DNA of 64,000 nucleotides from Caldicellulosiruptor changbaiensis (GTDB lineage Bacteria; Bacillota; Thermoanaerobacteria; Caldicellulosiruptorales; Caldicellulosiruptoraceae). A model generated the notes under the pieces. The model was not told the origin of the DNA, searched no databases, and saw only the letters and a list, made by a program, of their open reading frames with translations. The translations under genes were made by a program, and so were the position numbers. The stretch lies in contig NZ_CP034791.1 of the NCBI RefSeq assembly GCF_003999255.1, positions 1,900,501 to 1,964,500 on the forward strand, given 5' to 3'. Below are positions 5,398 to 58,697 of the stretch, one piece after another (the stretch's first letter is position 1; each line of letters starts with the position of its first letter).

Positions 5398-5671
5398 TTT
5401 AACCCCCTCTTTTCTCTTTTTTTAAATAGGAAAGTATTTGAAGCTTACATGTTACATGTACAATTTTAACTTCCTTTTTATCACCCCACATTTGTCACTG
5501 TGTTGTTTTAGATTTGATACATTATTCTTTTTAATAACATTTTATACTTTTGAACTGCGCTGAATCTATAATTATCTTGCAAAAAATTATAACAATATTG
5601 CTCTTAATGCACTAACAATTGTTGGACTTTTCTTATCGTATATGCAATGTGTAAAAAAATTAGAATTTCAT

Positions 5672-14667: not shown

Positions 14668-14910
14668 TTTTAACCCTAACCCCCTTTTTTGATTTGATAG
14701 TTAATCTTAATTAATCGTATTAGATGGCATAATTTCGAAACTCATATTTAGTTCCCACAATAAATGTTTAATAATTACTTAGTTTTTAGCCGTTTTCTAT
14801 CACCCCCTTCTTCCCTTTAATTCGCTTGCTTAATGACTTTAACTATACAAGTCCCCTACTGACCTTAAATTTTTTTCATATATCCACAAATTCCCATTTA
14901 ACGTATATTA

Positions 14911-18468: not shown

Positions 18469-18563
18469 CAGCCTAACCCCCTCTCTTAAATTCAACGCTA
18501 ATGAGAGACATAATATTACTTAATTCTTTCATTTTTTTTGGAATGCCATGTTCATTTATAACT

Positions 18564-23003: not shown

Positions 23004-23012
23004 TTTATCCAC

Positions 23013-23623
23013 TAACCCCCTCTTCTTATTTTTAAATTTTTAATTTTACATTTTGTCGAAAACAAATTGGCGACACTATTTAATTGTTCAATTTTGACAC
23101 TATATGTTACCATTTTTTTGAAAGCTTATTTGTAATTACGAAATTCTTAATATGAGCAAAACTTTAAACAAAGGCTCTGGTGCTGCCGAAAGTCTTACAT
23201 CACATCGTGCAGCGTAAACCTAAATATTTTTTCGGCTTTTATTTAAACCTTTTTTCTTATGTTAATCTTATATATACCATATGTGGCACATTGACTTTAT
23301 AGAATTGATCATCATTAAAAACTCAGTTACAGCTTTTTCTTCCACAGTATCTAATTTTAAAAACCTTACTTTGAAGTTATCACTCTTTTTTCCAAATTTT
23401 AAAGCTTCACATTTATACTCTCAGTCTATTTAAAATGGCAATACTCATTTAAAAATATTTCAACCTCTGTACAAAAATACTATCAACATATTTGACACAA
23501 TTCTTAAATACAAGTTACAACATCAATTGCCATTTTGGCATTACACCAGAGCCCTCATAAAAACCAAATTCCTTATGAATTTTTTAACATCATTTCGTAT
23601 AATTATTATGCTTACATTGAAAT
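23013..23623. other. Intergenic leader between GH44 and GH10-GH48 genes
   Basis: 611 bases, AT-rich, upstream of the GH10-GH48 start on the minus strand. No gene is recognisable. It contains the 10-bp inverted repeat pair at 23173-23182 and 23544-23553 (separate entry) and, close to the gene, two copies of TAGTGTC about 27 bases apart (around 23056 and 23100) that could be regulator sites. No convincing -35/-10 pair or intrinsic terminator was found by eye. Confidence 0.4.
23173..23553. repeat. Inverted repeat pair flanking a ~360-bp AT-rich segment
   Basis: GGCTCTGGTG at 23173-23182 is exactly inverted at 23544-23553, and similarity is weak beyond it. The spacing and the GGCTCT end resemble the termini of an ISL3-like element or a MITE whose inside has decayed, but no transposase sequence and no target duplication are visible. 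Confidence 0.35.
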
Positions 23624-27535: not shown

Positions 27536-27624
27536 CTTAAATCCTAACCCCCTCTTTTTTATGCATTTTTGCCATTATACCTCTTTATTTTTTGTACTAT
27601 TTTTTGAACACCTCTATACAGGAT

Positions 27625-27689: not shown

Positions 27690-30222
27690 TTATTGATTGC
27701 CGAACAGAATTTCATATGTTGCATTAGCAATTGCTATGTCACACTGTGCCCAGAACCTGTGATATCTGAACTCCGGTACCTGCCCTGACTTGTATGCCGC
27801 CTCTAACTTCGGCCAATCAGGATCTTGTTTGTACTTGCTCCTTATGTCTATAAACTTAACTCCACTCTTTATTACATCTCCATTCGGCATCTTCCCTGTC
27901 CAGCCTGCCGGAATGTATACCTCTTGCTCAAAGAACCTCTTGTAGTCCGCTCTCTTCTCTGGCGCTGATAAACCTTTCTCATCCCTGTATAACTTCCACA
28001 TCCTGTCCAGCAATTCCTTCGCTAAATTCTTCGCTTCCTCATCAAATACCCCATACTTCTTCGTCCCTGCACTGTAATAAAGTAGTGCATTCGCAAGTGA
28101 TGCCGTTATTCCTAAATCCGTCCCATAATCTACTACCTTCACATGCAAGTTCGGATTACCTGTATATGTCCCATTCCATGTGTCTGGCTGCCCACTCCAA
28201 TCAAGCGTCGACGGTATCGCAAATGTACCATCACTGTTCAACTTCACTACACTCTTTATCCAGCTTACCCACTTCTCAAGCAGTGCTCCTGCATCCTTAT
28301 CCCCTGTCACATAGTAATACTCCGCTACCCTCTGCATCGACCATGCCTGGAATCCAAACCATGTATTGCTACCCGGGTCCCTATACACAGGGTTCGGTTC
28401 ATACGCCATCCCATAAAATGTCGCTGTACCTGCCGGATATTTCTCGTACCTGCCATTCCATGAATTTGTCGCGCCTCCTGCTATCGCTCCCTCCGCTGAC
28501 TGCAACCACCTGTAAAATTCTATCTGCCTCTTCAAACTCTTCGCCCAGTCACTCACTCCGTTCGGTGACTTCGGCTTCATATCACTATCATTTGCTAATG
28601 CCCATGCAGCCATCGGATTCTGATATCCAAAGTGCGCATGACTGCAACCTATCTTCCATGACCATGCACCATCAAGTGCTCCGCCCCATGCATAATACCA
28701 TGATAACAGATAATGTGCACTGTCATACCCTGTTCCTCCAGCTGCATTCTTGTCCTGACATCCTAATGGCTTGAAATACTTGTCAAACATCGCATACCTC
28801 AAATAGTCTCCCATCTTCGCTGCCTTCGCTACATAGCTGCTTATCTCATTAAACTTACCTTGCTCCTTCGCCCATACCTTCGCCCAGTAAGTAGCCTGAA
28901 TAGCTCTCGCATCCGCATCCGGTGCGTTCGTATACCTCCACTGCTTCGAATAGTTCTGATCCTTAATAAACAGATCTAAAAATCCATTCGGTCCGCCCCA
29001 TTTGAATTCCTCCCAGCTCGGATGCGGTACAGTCTCCCATACAGACTCCTCAGGCCCTCTCTGGAACGTGTTGATAAATGATGCACGGCTCACTCCGTCC
29101 CCTCTCTTGCCATATCCATACCAGTTGTCTACGTCCATCAACCAGTGCATACCATACATCAATGTGCTACCATATGTGCTCACAAGCTCATTATGCAACG
29201 GATCCTTCCCAACAGGTACATTAAACTCAAGCGGCGATGGATACTTGTCCGGTGTCTCCCACTCACCTGCATACGTCGCTGGCTTGTTAGGATCATATGT
29301 CCTCATCGGCTGATCTTCAGCCGACGGTATCATATACTTCTCTAATGTGTCCCATGCCGTCTTAAACTTGCTCCAATCACCTGTTAACTTCCCATACACT
29401 GCCTCAAGCCATACATAGTACGAAAATGCTTCACTCGTGGTCAAATGACCATAATCAGGTGCTTCGCATATCAATGTCTCTATCGAATGATATGGTATCC
29501 CATCCTGGTTAAAATACCCATTCGCAGGATCATGTATCTTGTTCCACAACCACATAAACCTCTGCCCATATTCTCCAAGACCGCTAGGTGTGCCGCTCGG
29601 TGTAGGTGTAGGCGCAACTGTCTGCGTCGGCGTTGGAGTTGACGTTGGGGTTGGAGTTGGAGTTGGGGTTGACGTTGGTGTTGGTGCCGGGGTTGGAGTA
29701 GGTGTTGGTGTTGCTGTAGGTGCTGGTGCAGGTGTCGCTCCACTCGGCTCCTGTCCCCATACCAGCACTCCATCTATATACGCCGTTACCTTCTCATTCT
29801 CTCCATAACTCGTCATGCTCTGTAACCATGACCAGTCATTCCCCTGATTGTAATTGCTCCAGTCATCCTTGTTAAACCTTATCTGTATCTCTCCTGTGTC
29901 CTTCCCAGGCTGTAACTGCCCAGCTCCACTCTTAAATCCTATCTCTAAATAATAGTCCGCTCCTTCTACACTACTGCTCAGCTTCACAAACTTGAATGTT
30001 ACATTGCTTGCCCCTATCTGTGCCCAGTCCGATATCGCACTCTGTGCCCTCTCCTCATCCACCGTGTACCAGTACCTTATCGTTACCCTGCTCAAATCTA
30101 TGCTACTGCTACCACTATTCACTACCTTCAACCAAGGCCTTATCGTGTTAGTTGTGCTATTGGTCTCCTTGTTCGCATACAGTACCTTTATCTGCCCACT
30201 TGTCGCAGGTGTGCTGACAGGT
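27690..30222 (-). repeat. 2.5-kb duplicated block, copy B (CBM3b-linker-GH48 of celA)
   Basis: Partner of 18648-21180, shifted by 9042 bases. The CBM3b part differs slightly more than the GH48 part (for example EERAQ instead of GERAQ). Confidence 0.9.
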
Positions 30223-32891
30223 GTCGGTGTTGCTGTTACTGTCGGCGTAGGTGTCACTGTTGGGGTCGGCGTCGGTGCAACCGTCGCTGTCGGTGCAGGT
30301 GTAGCTCCACTCGGCTCCTGTCCCCATACCAGCACTCCATCTATATACGCCGTTACCTTCTCATTCTCTCCATAACTCGTCATGCTCTGTAACCATGACC
30401 AGTCATTCCCCTGATTGTAATTGCTCCAGTCATCCTTGTTAAACCTTATCTGTATCTCTCCTGTGTCCTTCCCAGGCTGCAACTGCCCCGCTCCACTCTT
30501 AAATCCTATCTCTAAATAATAGTCCGCTCCACTTACGCTACTGCTCAGCTTCACAAACTTGAATGTTACATTGCTTGCCCCTATCTGTGCCCAGTCTGAT
30601 ATCGCACTCTGTGCCCTCTCCCCATCCACCGTGTACCAGTACCTTATCGTTACCCTGCTCAAATCTATACTACTGCTACCACTATTCACTACCTTCAACC
30701 ACGGCCTTATCGTGTTTGTCGTGCTGTTTGTCTCCTTGTTCGCATACAGTACCTTTATCTGCCCACTCGTCGCAGGTGTGCTAACAGGTGTAGGCGTCGG
30801 TGTCGGTGTTGGTGTTGCTGTTGGAGTCGGGGTTGGTGTTGGAGTTGGTGTTACTGTTACTGTCGGTGTTGGCGTCGGTGTCGGGGTTGGCGTCGGTGTC
30901 GGTGTTGGAGTCGGGGTTACACTTGCAGTTGGTGTTGGTGTTACTCCAGATGTACCTGGCTCTTCACCCCATACCTTGATATCTCCATCATATAATGGTA
31001 TATATTTCGTTTTAACAACTGAACCACTTGAAACTCCCTTTATATCCTGGAATGAATAGTCGTTAGAATTATCCCACTGTACATTCTGTGGCGCTGCAAT
31101 TCTGAATTGAACTTCTTTCTTATATTTGTCTTGGCCACCTGGATAAATCAATGTGCCAGTAAAGTCTACTAAAATGTAGTATATATTTTTGCTTGCATCC
31201 CACACATAAGGTCCACTTACTTTTGCACCTTGATTATAATTGGTACTCAAGGTTAATTGATCTGGTGAATATCCTGCTTTAATTAATTCGCTCAGATCAA
31301 CAAAATATCTAAATTTAAGCTTATCTGTTGCTCTTGCGGGCCAACCACTCTGATTATTAACAATCGCCTTAATTTCAATAAAGTTTGTTCCAGAAGCATT
31401 TATACCAGCTTCAACAAAGAACTCATCATTTGTTGGTGTTTCAATTGCTTTGAAGTCAGGTATTGGATTTCCACCATATAATAAGTACATCTTTGCCAAT
31501 GCACCAACAAATCCTGCGTTGTAGTCACATGCTACCTCATTATTCACATAGTTGCTAATGTCATCTGTATAGCTATCATCAGAGCCTGGACCACCAACAA
31601 GCGCTCCATATAATGTATGTCTATGATATGAAGGTATACTCTGACTGTCTGCCCATGAGCTATGAGCAGTTCTGTGATGCGGTCTCTTTGGTGGATTTGT
31701 GCCAAATCCACCAACAAAGCTTCTTCCAGTTGAGCCTAATGCATAATCAATTTGGCTTTCTCCAAATTTTCTATATGTTTCTTTTTTACCAGTAGGGCAA
31801 CCAGACCAATCGCTATAAACAAATGCTAAAAACGCTGTAGTTGTTGCATATCTCAAAGAACCCCATTGATCAAGCCATGCTAATCCTTTCGGAGTATACT
31901 TTATCCTTTCGCCGTTATACCCTGTAGTCCAGTAATCTAAGTGACTCTCAATAATTTGTTTATAAGTATCCTTGTCGGTAACTTTTGCTAACAATAATGC
32001 CGCTCCATTGTGAACATCATCCCAGCAATGAGCCCATTTGTAGTCAATTGTGTTACTACCTGAAATTTTTGGCCAATTTTGGACATATGACTCAGCTTTT
32101 GTTAGATATGTTGAATCATTTGTTGCTAAATACAACCAAACTGCTGCCCAAGAAAGCTCATCATAGAAACCGCTCCATGAATTATAATATCCATTTGCTG
32201 CCGTGTAACCAGAATCGCTTTTTGTCACTTCTGCAAACTCATATAAATCTTTTGCATGTTGCAGATATGTTGCTGCTTTAGTGGGATTTCTGTCTTTCAA
32301 AACAATTGAAGCTGCTGCTAAGGAAGCTGCCGTCTCTGCTACTACCGCAGAACCTGGACTGCTCTGGGTGACCTTAAATGAAGGTCTCTCCATTTGCATA
32401 ACCTCAGCAGGCCCCCACCATGCATGATCTTTACTTCCATCTCCAACCTGGTAATAGTATACATATTTGCTTGGATGGCATTTTACAAAATAGTCATTAA
32501 CCCATTCGATTTGGTTTAAGATATGTTCCAATTGACCACTCTTGACAAATGCATCTTTGTATTCATACACTGCCCATGACAACATTGTACCAGTATACGA
32601 CATTGGAAGGTTAAACTTGACGTGATCACCTGCGTCAAACCAACCACCTGTCAAATCAAGCCCATTGTCTTGACCATCCTTTAATGCTGAATCACCACGC
32701 CAGTTGTTGCGTACCCAATTCGGAAGTTTACCAGACATTTGAAATTCGTAAAACATGATAGCTTTTTGTAAAGCTTCCCCATAGTTAAACGAACCAGCCC
32801 GAACCTCCTGCCATGGTTTAACCCCATATACCACTCCTAAAATAAATATGAAGGTTACAACCATTGCAATAACTCTTCTGTAACGCTGCAT
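27690..32891 (-). CDS. celA: CelA: GH9-CBM3c-CBM3b-CBM3b-GH48 cellulase
   Basis: Dominant secreted cellulase of strongly cellulolytic Caldicellulosiruptor, combining an endo-processive GH9 with an exo-acting GH48. ATG 32891 is chosen over an upstream in-frame ATG at 32966 because GAGGGGGTTAG ends just before it and [11 protein letters not shown] matches the start of the known CelA. Signal peptide ~1-32 (ends EVRA); GH9 ~33-470 with [13 protein letters not shown] and [13 protein letters not shown]3c ~490-645; Pro/Thr linker; CBM3b ~703-856; linker; CBM3b ~892-1045; linker; GH48 ~1101-1733 with [14 protein letters not shown]. The linkers are the expected O-glycosylation sites. First gene of the cellulase locus, preceded by a long leader with a c-di-GMP riboswitch, an inverted relic of its own start, and a possible proximal promoter. 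Confidence 0.97.
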
Positions 32892-33075
32892 AAAATCTCT
32901 AACCCCCTCATTCAGTTTATTATAATTTTCGATTTCAATTATATACCCAAAATACGTGCATGCCAATTGATTTTTTTTGTCTAATTTGTTTGTTTAATTG
33001 TCAAAAACACACTACGCTATTTCTATTTTCCTTCCTTATACGTACTTTTATTTCTCATATTCTTTTTATTACAAA

Positions 33076-33084: not shown

Positions 33085-33260
33085 CAAATGTTTCTAATAT
33101 TTTGCATTATTTTGCTCTATGGAGGTCAAGAAAATACAACAAAATAATTTGATATTAAATGGAATCGACATAGATATGTTCGCTGTAGAAAAGATTGTTA
33201 TATTTTATTGAATAACTTTATGATGTGGCATAAACTTTTTTTCAGAAACTAAACAAAGTT

Positions 33261-33297
33261 AATATATTGGCTGCCTTTGCACGGCAGCCAATATATT
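33261..33297. other. Perfect 15-bp hairpin in the celA upstream region
   Basis: Arms 33261-33275 and 33283-33297 are perfectly complementary around a 7-base loop. It looks like an intrinsic-terminator stem, but neither strand has a strong U-tract. It lies inside the transcript that would run from the riboswitch to celA and next to the inverted celA relic, so it could have been carried with that relic. Confidence 0.6.
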
Positions 33298-33317
33298 ATA
33301 TATAGAATATATTAAAA

Positions 33318-33358
33318 AGAGGGGGTTAGGGGATAGCTTTTTTCAGCGTTACAGAAGA
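33318..33358 (+). pseudogene. Inverted relic of the celA RBS and start region
   Basis: On the + strand, AGAGGGGGTTAG (33318-33329) followed by CAGCGTTACAGAAGA (33344-33358) matches the celA RBS and codons 2-6 in the same order, in opposite orientation. The ATG is missing and the frame ends soon after (around 33384), so it is not a working gene. The two matched segments are complementary to celA 32899-32909 and 32874-32888. Either a fragment of a second celA-like gene left by an inversion, or a selected regulatory complement. Confidence 0.75.
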
Positions 33359-33430
33359 ATTTATTTAAATTTTAGATTAATACCTTCTTTAAATCTTTAT
33401 GTATGGTTTAGTACATTTTTTATTTTCATT

Positions 33431-33462
33431 CTAAAAAAACGGCGTCTTGCCAGACGCCGTTT
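33431..33462 (-). terminator. Intrinsic terminator, expression platform of the c-di-GMP riboswitch
   Basis: On the minus strand AAACGGCGTC - TGGCAA - GACGCCGTTT is followed by a run of Ts: a perfect 10-bp GC-rich stem with U-tract. It begins about 42 bases after the riboswitch core, the usual place for a transcriptional expression platform. Confidence 0.88.
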
Positions 33463-33499
33463 CTAACCATTTCTCAAATCTCTCTAAAACCTGAGTTGG

Positions 33500-33590
33500 T
33501 TTCGGCAGCCTGGCAACCATAGGAAACTTTCCTTCCGACAGGCCCATGGCTTTGCGCCCCTGCCTTTCGACAGGTTTGCCCTTTCGACAC
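33500..33590 (-). ncRNA. Class I c-di-GMP riboswitch (GEMM-I)
   Basis: On the minus strand the conserved elements occur in order: GGGCAAACC, a hairpin closed by a GAAA tetraloop (CCTGTCGAAAGGCAGG), the hallmark GGGGCGCAAAGCC, ATGGGCC, and a second arm with a GGAAAGTTTCC hairpin and GGTTGCC...GGCTGCC. This is the known GEMM-I layout. It is followed by a terminator (33431-33462) and, ~540 bases on, by celA on the same strand. No other minus-strand gene lies between, so celA is the only visible target, unless an original target gene was lost during the rearrangements here. Confidence 0.9.
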
Positions 33591-33668
33591 ATGCTTTACT
33601 TATTTTTGAAAACTTTGTTCAGATAAGCATTCTTTGTGTATAATTTTTCTGTAGTTTCTTCTGATTAT

Positions 33669-33696
33669 ATTATCGCATAAATTTTTAAATTTTCAA
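33669..33696 (-). promoter_or_regulatory. Promoter of the riboswitch-celA leader
   Basis: On the minus strand TTGAAA (33691-33696) is followed after 16 bases by GATAAT (33669-33674), overlapped by TAATAT at 18 bases spacing. Transcription would start about 75 bases before the aptamer core. Confidence 0.55.
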
Positions 33697-57553: not shown

Positions 57554-58510
57554 TTACCTTATCACTCTTTTTGCCATCATGAACGATGTACCATACTTTG
57601 AAGTAAGGTCTGAAATTGTAACACAGCCTCTTGCACTCGATGCATGAATATATTTACCACCACCCAGATAAATTCCAACGTGATTGATATAATTTCTACC
57701 ACCGTCTGTATCAAAAAATACCAAATCACCAGGTCTTAACTCATTATATGATATTCTCACACCGTTTGTAGCTGCCATGTCAGCTGCAGTTCTTTCTAAG
57801 CTAATCCCAAAGTTTCTAAACACATATTGAACAAATCCTGAACAGTCAAACCCTGTCGAAGGAGATGAACCACCATATCGATACCGTATCCCTAAAAGGT
57901 TTTTAGCAAACCCAAGTATTCTATCAGCTAAACTGCCATTGTAAGCAACTTGAGCTTCCCTATCATATCCGCCACGTGATGATATCTTTGTTGTATGGCT
58001 TGTTGACATTTTCAAAAGATAATATGCCATATATCCAACTGTGCCATCGAGCGTTTTTACCTTTATCCAACCGTTTCGCTCTCTTGCCAAAACGTATACC
58101 TTGCTACCCTTCTTCAATGTTTTTAGTATTTTTGAGGAAGTGGACATATTACTTCTGACCCTTGCATTGTCTTTTAGAACGGTTGCCATCGGCATCTGAG
58201 AAACTACTTGCCTTGTATTTGTAGAACTTTTTACTGCATTTGAAGTACTGCTGTCTTTTGTAAGCTTTATGTAATCAGATTTAACATACCCAACAACACC
58301 ATCAAATGAAATCTTAACCCATCCACCTGTGGATGATAAAACTTGCGCTTTAAAGCCTTTTGGAAAAACTCCTAATACTTTTGATGATGTTGAAGGACTG
58401 TTTCGGATGTTGACAGTAACTGTTGCCTCAGCTGTCTTTGCAAAACCTTTGCTACTCCATGTTATAAGCAGCAAAAACATCAAAATTCCAATTAAAGCTT
58501 TAGTATTCAT
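57554..58510 (-). CDS. Secreted SH3-SH3-NlpC/P60 peptidoglycan hydrolase
   Basis: 318 residues. Signal peptide ~1-24; two bacterial SH3 domains (~27-85 and ~108-168; VNIRNSPSTSSKVLGVFPKG and ARVRSNMSTSSKILKTLKKG); a C-terminal NlpC/P60 endopeptidase (~195-318) with catalytic Cys in FDCSGFVQYVF, His in INHVGIYLGG and a third polar residue in YIHASSARG. Cleaves stem peptides of the cell wall. A c-di-AMP riboswitch in its leader fits the known use of ydaO elements for wall hydrolases and osmotic genes. Confidence 0.93.
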   Translation of the reverse strand: MNTKALIGILMFLLLITWSSKGFAKTAEATVTVNIRNSPSTSSKVLGVFPKGFKAQVLSSTGGWVKISFDGVVGYVKSDYIKLTKDSSTSNAVKSSTNTRQVVSQMPMATVLKDNARVRSNMSTSSKILKTLKKGSKVYVLARERNGWIKVKTLDGTVGYMAYYLLKMSTSHTTKISSRGGYDREAQVAYNGSLADRILGFAKNLLGIRYRYGGSSPSTGFDCSGFVQYVFRNFGISLERTAADMAATNGVRISYNELRPGDLVFFDTDGGRNYINHVGIYLGGGKYIHASSARGCVTISDLTSKYGTSFMMAKRVIR

Positions 58511-58531
58511 TTAAAAACTCCCTTCTTTTTT

Positions 58532-58645
58532 GGGCTTACGGGATTAGCTGACGGGTTCGGGACAAGAAGGACATCCCTACGGCAGCCAAAGCTTGCCGAT
58601 TCACCCCACAATAAAGCTGGTTCTCCCGCTGCATGGGGCAAATTT
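58532..58645 (-). ncRNA. c-di-AMP riboswitch (ydaO/yuaA)
   Basis: On the minus strand the hallmark segments occur in order: GGGAGAACCAGC, GGGGTGAATCGGC, and CCGAACCCGTCAGCTAA followed by the closing arm. The RBS AAGAAGGGAG and ATG 58510 follow ~20 bases later, so translation control or early termination is possible. Boundaries are approximate; the 5' side may extend to ~58670. Confidence 0.92.
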
Positions 58646-58697
58646 AACAAACTGCCTCATGCATTCAGCCACTATTGTTAATCATTTTGATGTTATT

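Follow-up and report, generated by a model that had tools for sequence, protein, structure and literature searches.

A c-di-GMP-I riboswitch conserved upstream of celA in Caldicellulosiruptor, with a possible antisense output against the cellulases of the glucan degradation locus

Riboswitch-gated RNAs that act in trans are already known. EutX of Enterococcus faecalis and Rli55 of Listeria monocytogenes respond to vitamin B12 and sequester EutV; in both, the non-coding RNA that is gated or released by the riboswitch influences how other transcripts are expressed (PMC8383071); the SAM riboswitch RNAs SreA and SreB of Listeria pair in trans with an mRNA 5' UTR, and SreA does so as a terminated product (PMC8383071). 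With regard to c-di-GMP, the antitoxin RNAs RCd11 and RCd12 of Clostridioides difficile, which belong to type I toxin-antitoxin pairs, are antisense RNAs for which c-di-GMP-I riboswitches are listed (PMC11477304), and the merRNA of Bdellovibrio, a proposed c-di-GMP store, contains a c-di-GMP riboswitch within a non-coding RNA (PMC3627812). Antisense-acting riboswitches, among which the c-di-GMP class is enriched, lie at most 500 nt from a neighbouring gene of opposite orientation and control an antisense transcript (PMC9943018), and Gram-positive sRNAs with C-rich seeds, such as LhrC and the loops of RNAIII, direct UCCCC or ACCCCC stretches against G-rich RBSs (PMC8383071). Our literature search returned no report joining Caldicellulosiruptor, riboswitch and c-di-GMP and, judged by title and abstract, nothing relevant on small or antisense RNAs of Caldicellulosiruptor. 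The papers searched, which leave most subscription journals outside their coverage, likewise contained no c-di-GMP riboswitch whose output is a multi-target antisense RNA directed at a catabolic locus. The multidomain cellulase genes considered here belong to the glucan degradation locus (GDL), which a study of its regulation described as a locus without a dedicated transcription factor (PMC8579813).

Here, we analyzed 64,000 nucleotides of the Caldicellulosiruptor changbaiensis genome (NZ_CP034791.1, positions 1,900,501 to 1,964,500; hereafter the window), in which an earlier note had placed a GEMM-I riboswitch with its own promoter and a strong intrinsic terminator in the leader of celA. Covariance models confirmed a c-di-GMP-I (GEMM-I) aptamer on the minus strand, with a cmscan score of 70.9 bits for RF03167 (E 7e-16, gathering threshold 59) and, in a whole-genome search, 80.3 bits for the canonical model RF01051 (gathering threshold 35). 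The aptamer also has G20, A47 and C92 (Vc2 numbering), which we take to be the ligand-contacting core residues, within AGGGCAAACC, CGCAAAGCC, and CTGCCGAA. Score, core residues and a mutually exclusive expression platform all place it in the c-di-GMP-I class, and binding of c-di-GMP is predicted. The GGC variant label used by Rfam was not read as a sign of an altered ligand, as the canonical model scores higher and the window has A instead of G at the position that the label presumably marks. The remaining parts of the earlier description, namely the promoter-like site, the strong terminator and celA as the next gene about 540 bases past that terminator, were also recovered (Table 1), and the GH9-CBM3-CBM3-CBM3-GH48 architecture of celA was confirmed. 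Two further Rfam matches in the window concern other elements: a weak thermometer match at 33398-33500 on the plus strand, which falls far under its cut-off and lies on the inverted repeat of the terminator, was dismissed as chance, and a c-di-AMP riboswitch (RF00379, 91.7 bits) lies at 58518-58680 on the minus strand, upstream of a 318-aa ORF (57554-58510).

Table 1. Features of the window on which the analysis draws; duplex energies are predictions for pairing with the antisense element.
Feature	Positions	Strand	Details
Riboswitch promoter-like site	33667..33696	-	TTGAAA-16-GATAAT, TG before -10
c-di-GMP-I (GEMM-I) aptamer	33500..33589	-	
Antiterminator strand (aptamer 3' segment)	33503..33515	-	UGCCAGGCUGCCG; pairs with terminator 5' arm
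Intrinsic terminator, expression platform	33433..33464	-	ACGGCGTC-TGGCAA-GACGCCGT-T7; strong; loop UGGC invariant, shared with antiterminator
Antisense element, ~45 nt ("inverted relic")	33314..33360	-	TTCTTCTGTAACGCTGAAAAAAGCTATCCCCTAACCCCCTCTTTTT; complementary to the GAGGGGGTTAG motif at cellulase RBSs and, at celA, to RBS plus codons 2-6
16-bp hairpin with U-rich tail	33260..33298	-	ACTTTGTTTA; terminator-like; stem core invariant, loop variable
Conserved block	32976..33004	-	TTGACAATTAAACAAACAAATTAGACAAA; just upstream of celA promoter; best 36-nt windows (33002-32964) 94% invariant; single copy in window
celA own promoter	32938..32966	-	TTGGCA-17-TATAAT, 11 of 12; 47 nt before ATG; aligned counterparts in 7/7 genomes
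celA RBS motif, predicted target	32899..32909	-	GAGGGGGTTAG; -50.7 kcal/mol
celA	27690..32891	-	GH9-CBM3-CBM3-CBM3-GH48; ATG 32891
GH5-CBM3-GH44 gene RBS motif, predicted target	27544..27554	-	GAGGGGGTTAG; -38.9 kcal/mol
GH10-CBM3-GH48 gene RBS motif, predicted target	23012..23022	-	GAGGGGGTTAG; -37.4 kcal/mol
CBM4_9-GH10-GH5 gene RBS motif, predicted target	18473..18483	-	GAGGGGGTTAG; -29.4 kcal/mol; reading frame interrupted in window genome
GH9-CBM3-GH5 gene RBS motif, predicted target	14676..14684	-	GGGGGTTAG; -27.8 kcal/mol
Sortilin/BNR-repeat (GH74-like)-CBM3 gene RBS motif, predicted target	5400..5409	-	GAGGGGGTTA; ~27 kb from celA; -38.1 kcal/mol

Each of the 12 genomes of the genus that were compared carries between one and four c-di-GMP-I aptamers, which fall into three main context groups with few copies elsewhere. 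Group C precedes celA by 535-610 nt in each of the seven celA-bearing genomes, including the window genome, and is absent from all five genomes without celA; on account of this distribution, the genus comparison supports a conserved link between riboswitch and celA. Group A, found beyond the cellulase locus in nearly all of the 12 genomes, is mostly upstream of an ORF of ~140-160 aa that has no Pfam match. Its copy in the window genome (G000:C1:1898809-1898905, L031), which is the second of only two c-di-GMP-I aptamers in these 2.9 Mb and lies to the left of the window, adjoins a GGDEF gene; six GGDEF genes are present, which speaks for the c-di-GMP model proposed below. Group B lies between two tapirin adhesin genes in six genomes (L040:6713-6802; counterparts in L033, L035, L043, L046, and L051), with the tapirin identity backed in G006 by the PDB matches 4wa0 and 6n2b. 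As its platform appears to be of the same OFF type as the others, group B suggests control of the second tapirin gene by c-di-GMP. The relative of tapirin in the window is a distant match only (28% over part of an 897-aa PilX_N protein). In another genome (G011), a c-di-GMP-I aptamer (L053) lies upstream of a 555-aa ORF encoding an HD_5-domain protein, a placement that would be compatible with possible feedback on c-di-GMP turnover.

All copies in groups A, B, and C have a predicted antiterminator duplex between the terminator 5' arm and the 3' aptamer segment UGCCAGGCUGCC(G) (-18 to -23 kcal/mol; structure energies are for 37°C, except in one target comparison at 75°C). This antiterminator is incompatible with both the folded aptamer and the terminator, and the platform is therefore predicted to be an OFF switch in which c-di-GMP binding should favour termination. 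The terminator arms co-vary between groups (GGCACC/GGUGCC, GGCAUC/GAUGCC, and GGCGUC/GACGCC), while CUGGC in the 5' arm stays constant. Within group C, the UGGC of the terminator loop is invariant and the other two loop bases vary; owing to its position in the loop, the invariance of UGGC is not explicable by pairing within the hairpin.

Such a platform, with its alternative structures, and the synteny and orientation kept in seven genomes would fit an ordinary leader riboswitch; transcription reaching celA from the upstream promoter would then be under c-di-GMP control, and the antisense element described below would be incidental. We consider this reading improbable, and the riboswitch is probably not a simple celA leader, since celA has a conserved near-consensus promoter of its own and 5'-end mapping in C. 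bescii found no 5' UTR longer than 329 nt (that of fucI-alfA) among the mapped carbohydrate operons (PMC8579813); the 5' UTR of a riboswitch-started celA mRNA would exceed this value by hundreds of bases. Such a long leader would also carry a conserved anti-RBS. Predicted folding of the long readthrough RNA gives 26-31 pairs between this element and the celA start in every genome, so its own translation should be blocked, and the reading leaves the conservation of the element unexplained. Of the c-di-GMP link to celA that the earlier note had proposed, the association thus held in all seven celA genomes when the celA upstream regions were compared across the genus, whereas the simple leader mechanism was weakened by the promoter of celA, the short published 5' UTRs and a predicted readthrough RNA with a conserved stretch antisense to the start and RBS of celA. 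A transcription-factor site may be represented by the conserved block that directly precedes the promoter of celA.

Between the terminator and celA lies the element that the earlier note had called an inverted relic. It is present at that place in the window, but it is not debris. In an alignment of the seven celA genomes, 91% of its columns are invariant, compared with 94% for the aptamer, 85% for the celA codons and only 21% and 25% for the two flanking spacers. The element occurs once in each of the seven celA genomes and is absent from the five other genomes of the genus and from the sister genus; as a single copy per genome, it was rejected as a repeated mobile sequence. An exact 22-mer from it had no match in a wider collection of genome contigs, which possibly does not include close relatives, so that this result carries no information on the genus.

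The promoter region of the riboswitch has a history of its own in the window genome. The six other celA genomes have a different promoter at this position, which in G003 is a full consensus (TTGACA-17-TATAAT). Because window positions 33711-33533 (minus strand) are 91% identical to the region upstream of riboswitch A, the promoter and the 5' strand of P1 appear to be A-type replacements acquired by gene conversion between riboswitches A and C, which left C chimeric. The P1 helix of the window copy is mismatched, with a predicted energy of -5.2 kcal/mol; its counterparts in the six other celA genomes reach -6.7 to -9.5 kcal/mol. Given these mismatches, ligand switching in the window genome may be weak, impaired or constitutive, and the other celA genomes are better test cases for switching. 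The earlier note had considered it possible that the original target gene was removed by the rearrangement behind the inverted relic and the transposase debris; the rearrangement did change promoter and P1 strand in the window genome, but a lost target is not supported, as genomes without that rearrangement keep the order riboswitch, element, celA. Transposase debris and the chimeric promoter could be taken to mean that the riboswitch lost its target and that the inverted copy of the celA start is a duplication without function. This is very improbable in view of the arrangement kept by six other genomes, in which the spacers have decayed and the element is nearly as invariant as the aptamer, and both the relic and the lost-target models were rejected on the conservation of the element.

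The C-rich half of the element is complementary to GAGGGGGTTAG; it is only partly unpaired in the predicted RNA (0.38-0.79), which counts against the antisense model proposed below. The pattern GAGGRGGTTAG occurs six times in the 2.9-Mb genome: four copies mark the RBSs of consecutive cellulase genes, one is the element itself (opposite strand) and one lies elsewhere (GAGGAGGTTAG); it occurs three to six times in each celA genome, compared with zero to one in the others. Closely related forms are found at the GH9-GH5 and GH74-like starts. The complementarity is nearly restricted to starts of the GDL. The sequences around it differ from gene to gene, which argues against a simply duplicated leader, and an ordinary GGAGGTGA site precedes a multidomain glycoside hydrolase gene in a genome that lacks the element. 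A mere strong Shine-Dalgarno sequence was rejected as an explanation: the GDL strand contains GGGGGTTAG five times within 33 kb, compared with a single occurrence on the two strands of 400 kb of other sequence. With regard to the CBM4_9-GH10-GH5 gene, window positions 18460-14911 (minus strand) hold several ORFs where G003 has a single 1596-aa frame, a difference that may reflect frameshifts, decay or sequence error. Motif and element together could also be DNA or RNA sites of a protein regulator of the GDL, with proximity to the riboswitch being secondary. The literature describes this locus as lacking a dedicated transcription factor and anticipates further regulators for which celA1 and celF carry DNA motifs (PMC8579813); however, the motif stands at RBS spacing in front of internal genes and not at promoters, the additional match of the element to codons 2-6 of celA would be superfluous in a common site, and the orientation of the element on the riboswitch strand is reversed. 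We regard a protein site as quite improbable.

Some target scans had selected by motif in addition to energy, so that only the following four comparisons serve as controls of the predicted pairing. In a 464-kb sample of the window genome, RNAduplex placed four cellulase starts at the top of 369 gene starts (-50.7, -38.9, -37.4, and -37.4 kcal/mol); the best other start reaches -29.4, and the mean is -16.6 (s.d. 5.3). When the element was shuffled 500 times per target, zero or one of the shuffled sequences reached the observed duplex value. At 75°C, chosen as nearer the growth temperature of the genus, the six GDL starts gave -20.3 to -13.3 kcal/mol, compared with -8.8 for the best of 1000 random windows. 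GDL enzyme starts also top the duplex rankings in the six other celA genomes; these rankings sample mostly the locus itself, and the real control is the wider background of the window genome. For that genome, the analysis covered a 400-kb sample and whole-genome pattern searches. These comparisons point to a conserved seed whose complementarity to the target RBSs exceeds chance. The seven-genome alignment contains no compensatory change between element and targets, which counts against the antisense model, although such change would be supporting and not strictly defining evidence and several predicted targets per seed limit covariation; in two genomes (G002 and G006), celA has GAGGAGG and the element differs at one position, and each of these changes weakens a pair. 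The RBS regions of the first tapirin gene (GTGAGGGGGTAAAAAGGGGATG; GTGAGGGGGTAAAA(A)GGRGATG) are also predicted to pair with the element at -30 to -38 kcal/mol (L033, L035, L040, L043, L046, and L051), and this gene start is a possible, weaker candidate target.

We thus propose that the OFF-type c-di-GMP-I riboswitch, on balance probably, controls an antisense RNA that represses the GDL cellulases and not a protein-coding gene. At low c-di-GMP, the antiterminator would form between aptamer 3' segment and terminator 5' arm, and RNA polymerase would read through into an RNA of ~340 nt that spans the conserved C-rich element and probably ends at the 16-bp hairpin, the candidate 3' end of the antisense RNA. 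The element would then pair with the start region of celA, RBS included, as well as with the common RBS motif of the other multidomain GDL cellulase genes, and block their translation. At high c-di-GMP, the folded aptamer would allow the terminator to form, the antisense part would not be made, and the cellulases would be translated. More tentatively, and with somewhat less confidence than we place in this proposal, we suggest that the RNA, acting in trans on multiple targets, would coordinately repress translation of the whole cellulase locus and perhaps of a tapirin adhesin, so that a second messenger of surface life would activate biomass degradation by a double negative.

Action in cis has to be weighed against this proposal. 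The 16-bp hairpin is only fair as a terminator, and the readthrough RNA may therefore continue into celA as a long alternative leader, in which the element would reach back across ~400 nt and cover the RBS and start of celA; only the long mRNA would then be silenced, or its translation would be controlled by the fold, and the motif at other cellulases would have another reason. The element does lie on the celA strand, its longest complementarity is to celA, and the element-celA pairs of the folded long RNA recur in every genome. Nevertheless, we consider a cis-acting leader unlikely. Action in trans is preferred because five more GDL starts, one of them ~27 kb away, carry the motif, which folding in cis leaves unexplained; moreover, it is hard to see why translation of a minor isoform should be guarded when the proximal promoter makes most of the mRNA, and a terminator-like hairpin separates the element from celA.

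Attached bacterial cells usually hold more c-di-GMP. If this applies here, the proposed antisense RNA would have cellulase made while cells sit on their substrate, and cellulase output would be tied to attachment. The GDL would gain a dedicated post-transcriptional regulator, and the RBS motif common to otherwise unrelated gene starts would be accounted for. The GDL of these cellulose-eating hot-spring bacteria is a main model for thermophilic biomass conversion, and if the proposal is correct, the element would lend itself to engineering, as removal of these 45 nt alone might increase secretion of several cellulases together.

A c-di-GMP-gated, multi-target antisense output would be new in the literature searched, and the locus can be set beside the described systems as follows. 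It shares with other GEMM-I riboswitches (RF01051/RF03167) the sequence and fold of the aptamer, a terminator-based platform and neighbouring genes for cell-surface or adhesion functions, but a conserved antisense element, and not an mRNA start with a nearby RBS, follows the terminator. While EutX and Rli55 are likewise non-coding RNAs under riboswitch control, c-di-GMP is the predicted ligand here and pairing with several RBSs, not protein sequestration, is the proposed action (PMC8383071). Pairing in trans with mRNA 5' regions recalls SreA and SreB; by contrast with SreA, the antisense part would be present only in the readthrough product (PMC8383071). The C-rich seed resembles those of LhrC and RNAIII, although these are not known behind a riboswitch and the present element additionally matches celA codons (PMC8383071). 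Control of an antisense transcript is common to the antisense-acting riboswitches, but theirs lie opposite a neighbouring gene, whereas the riboswitch described here is on the celA strand (PMC9943018). The merRNA, too, joins a c-di-GMP riboswitch with a non-coding RNA, although the accessible part of that report describes no antisense element (PMC3627812). Finally, RCd11 and RCd12 share with this locus the combination of a c-di-GMP-I aptamer and an antisense RNA; they serve as antitoxins, whereas dispersed metabolic mRNAs are the predicted targets in Caldicellulosiruptor (PMC11477304).
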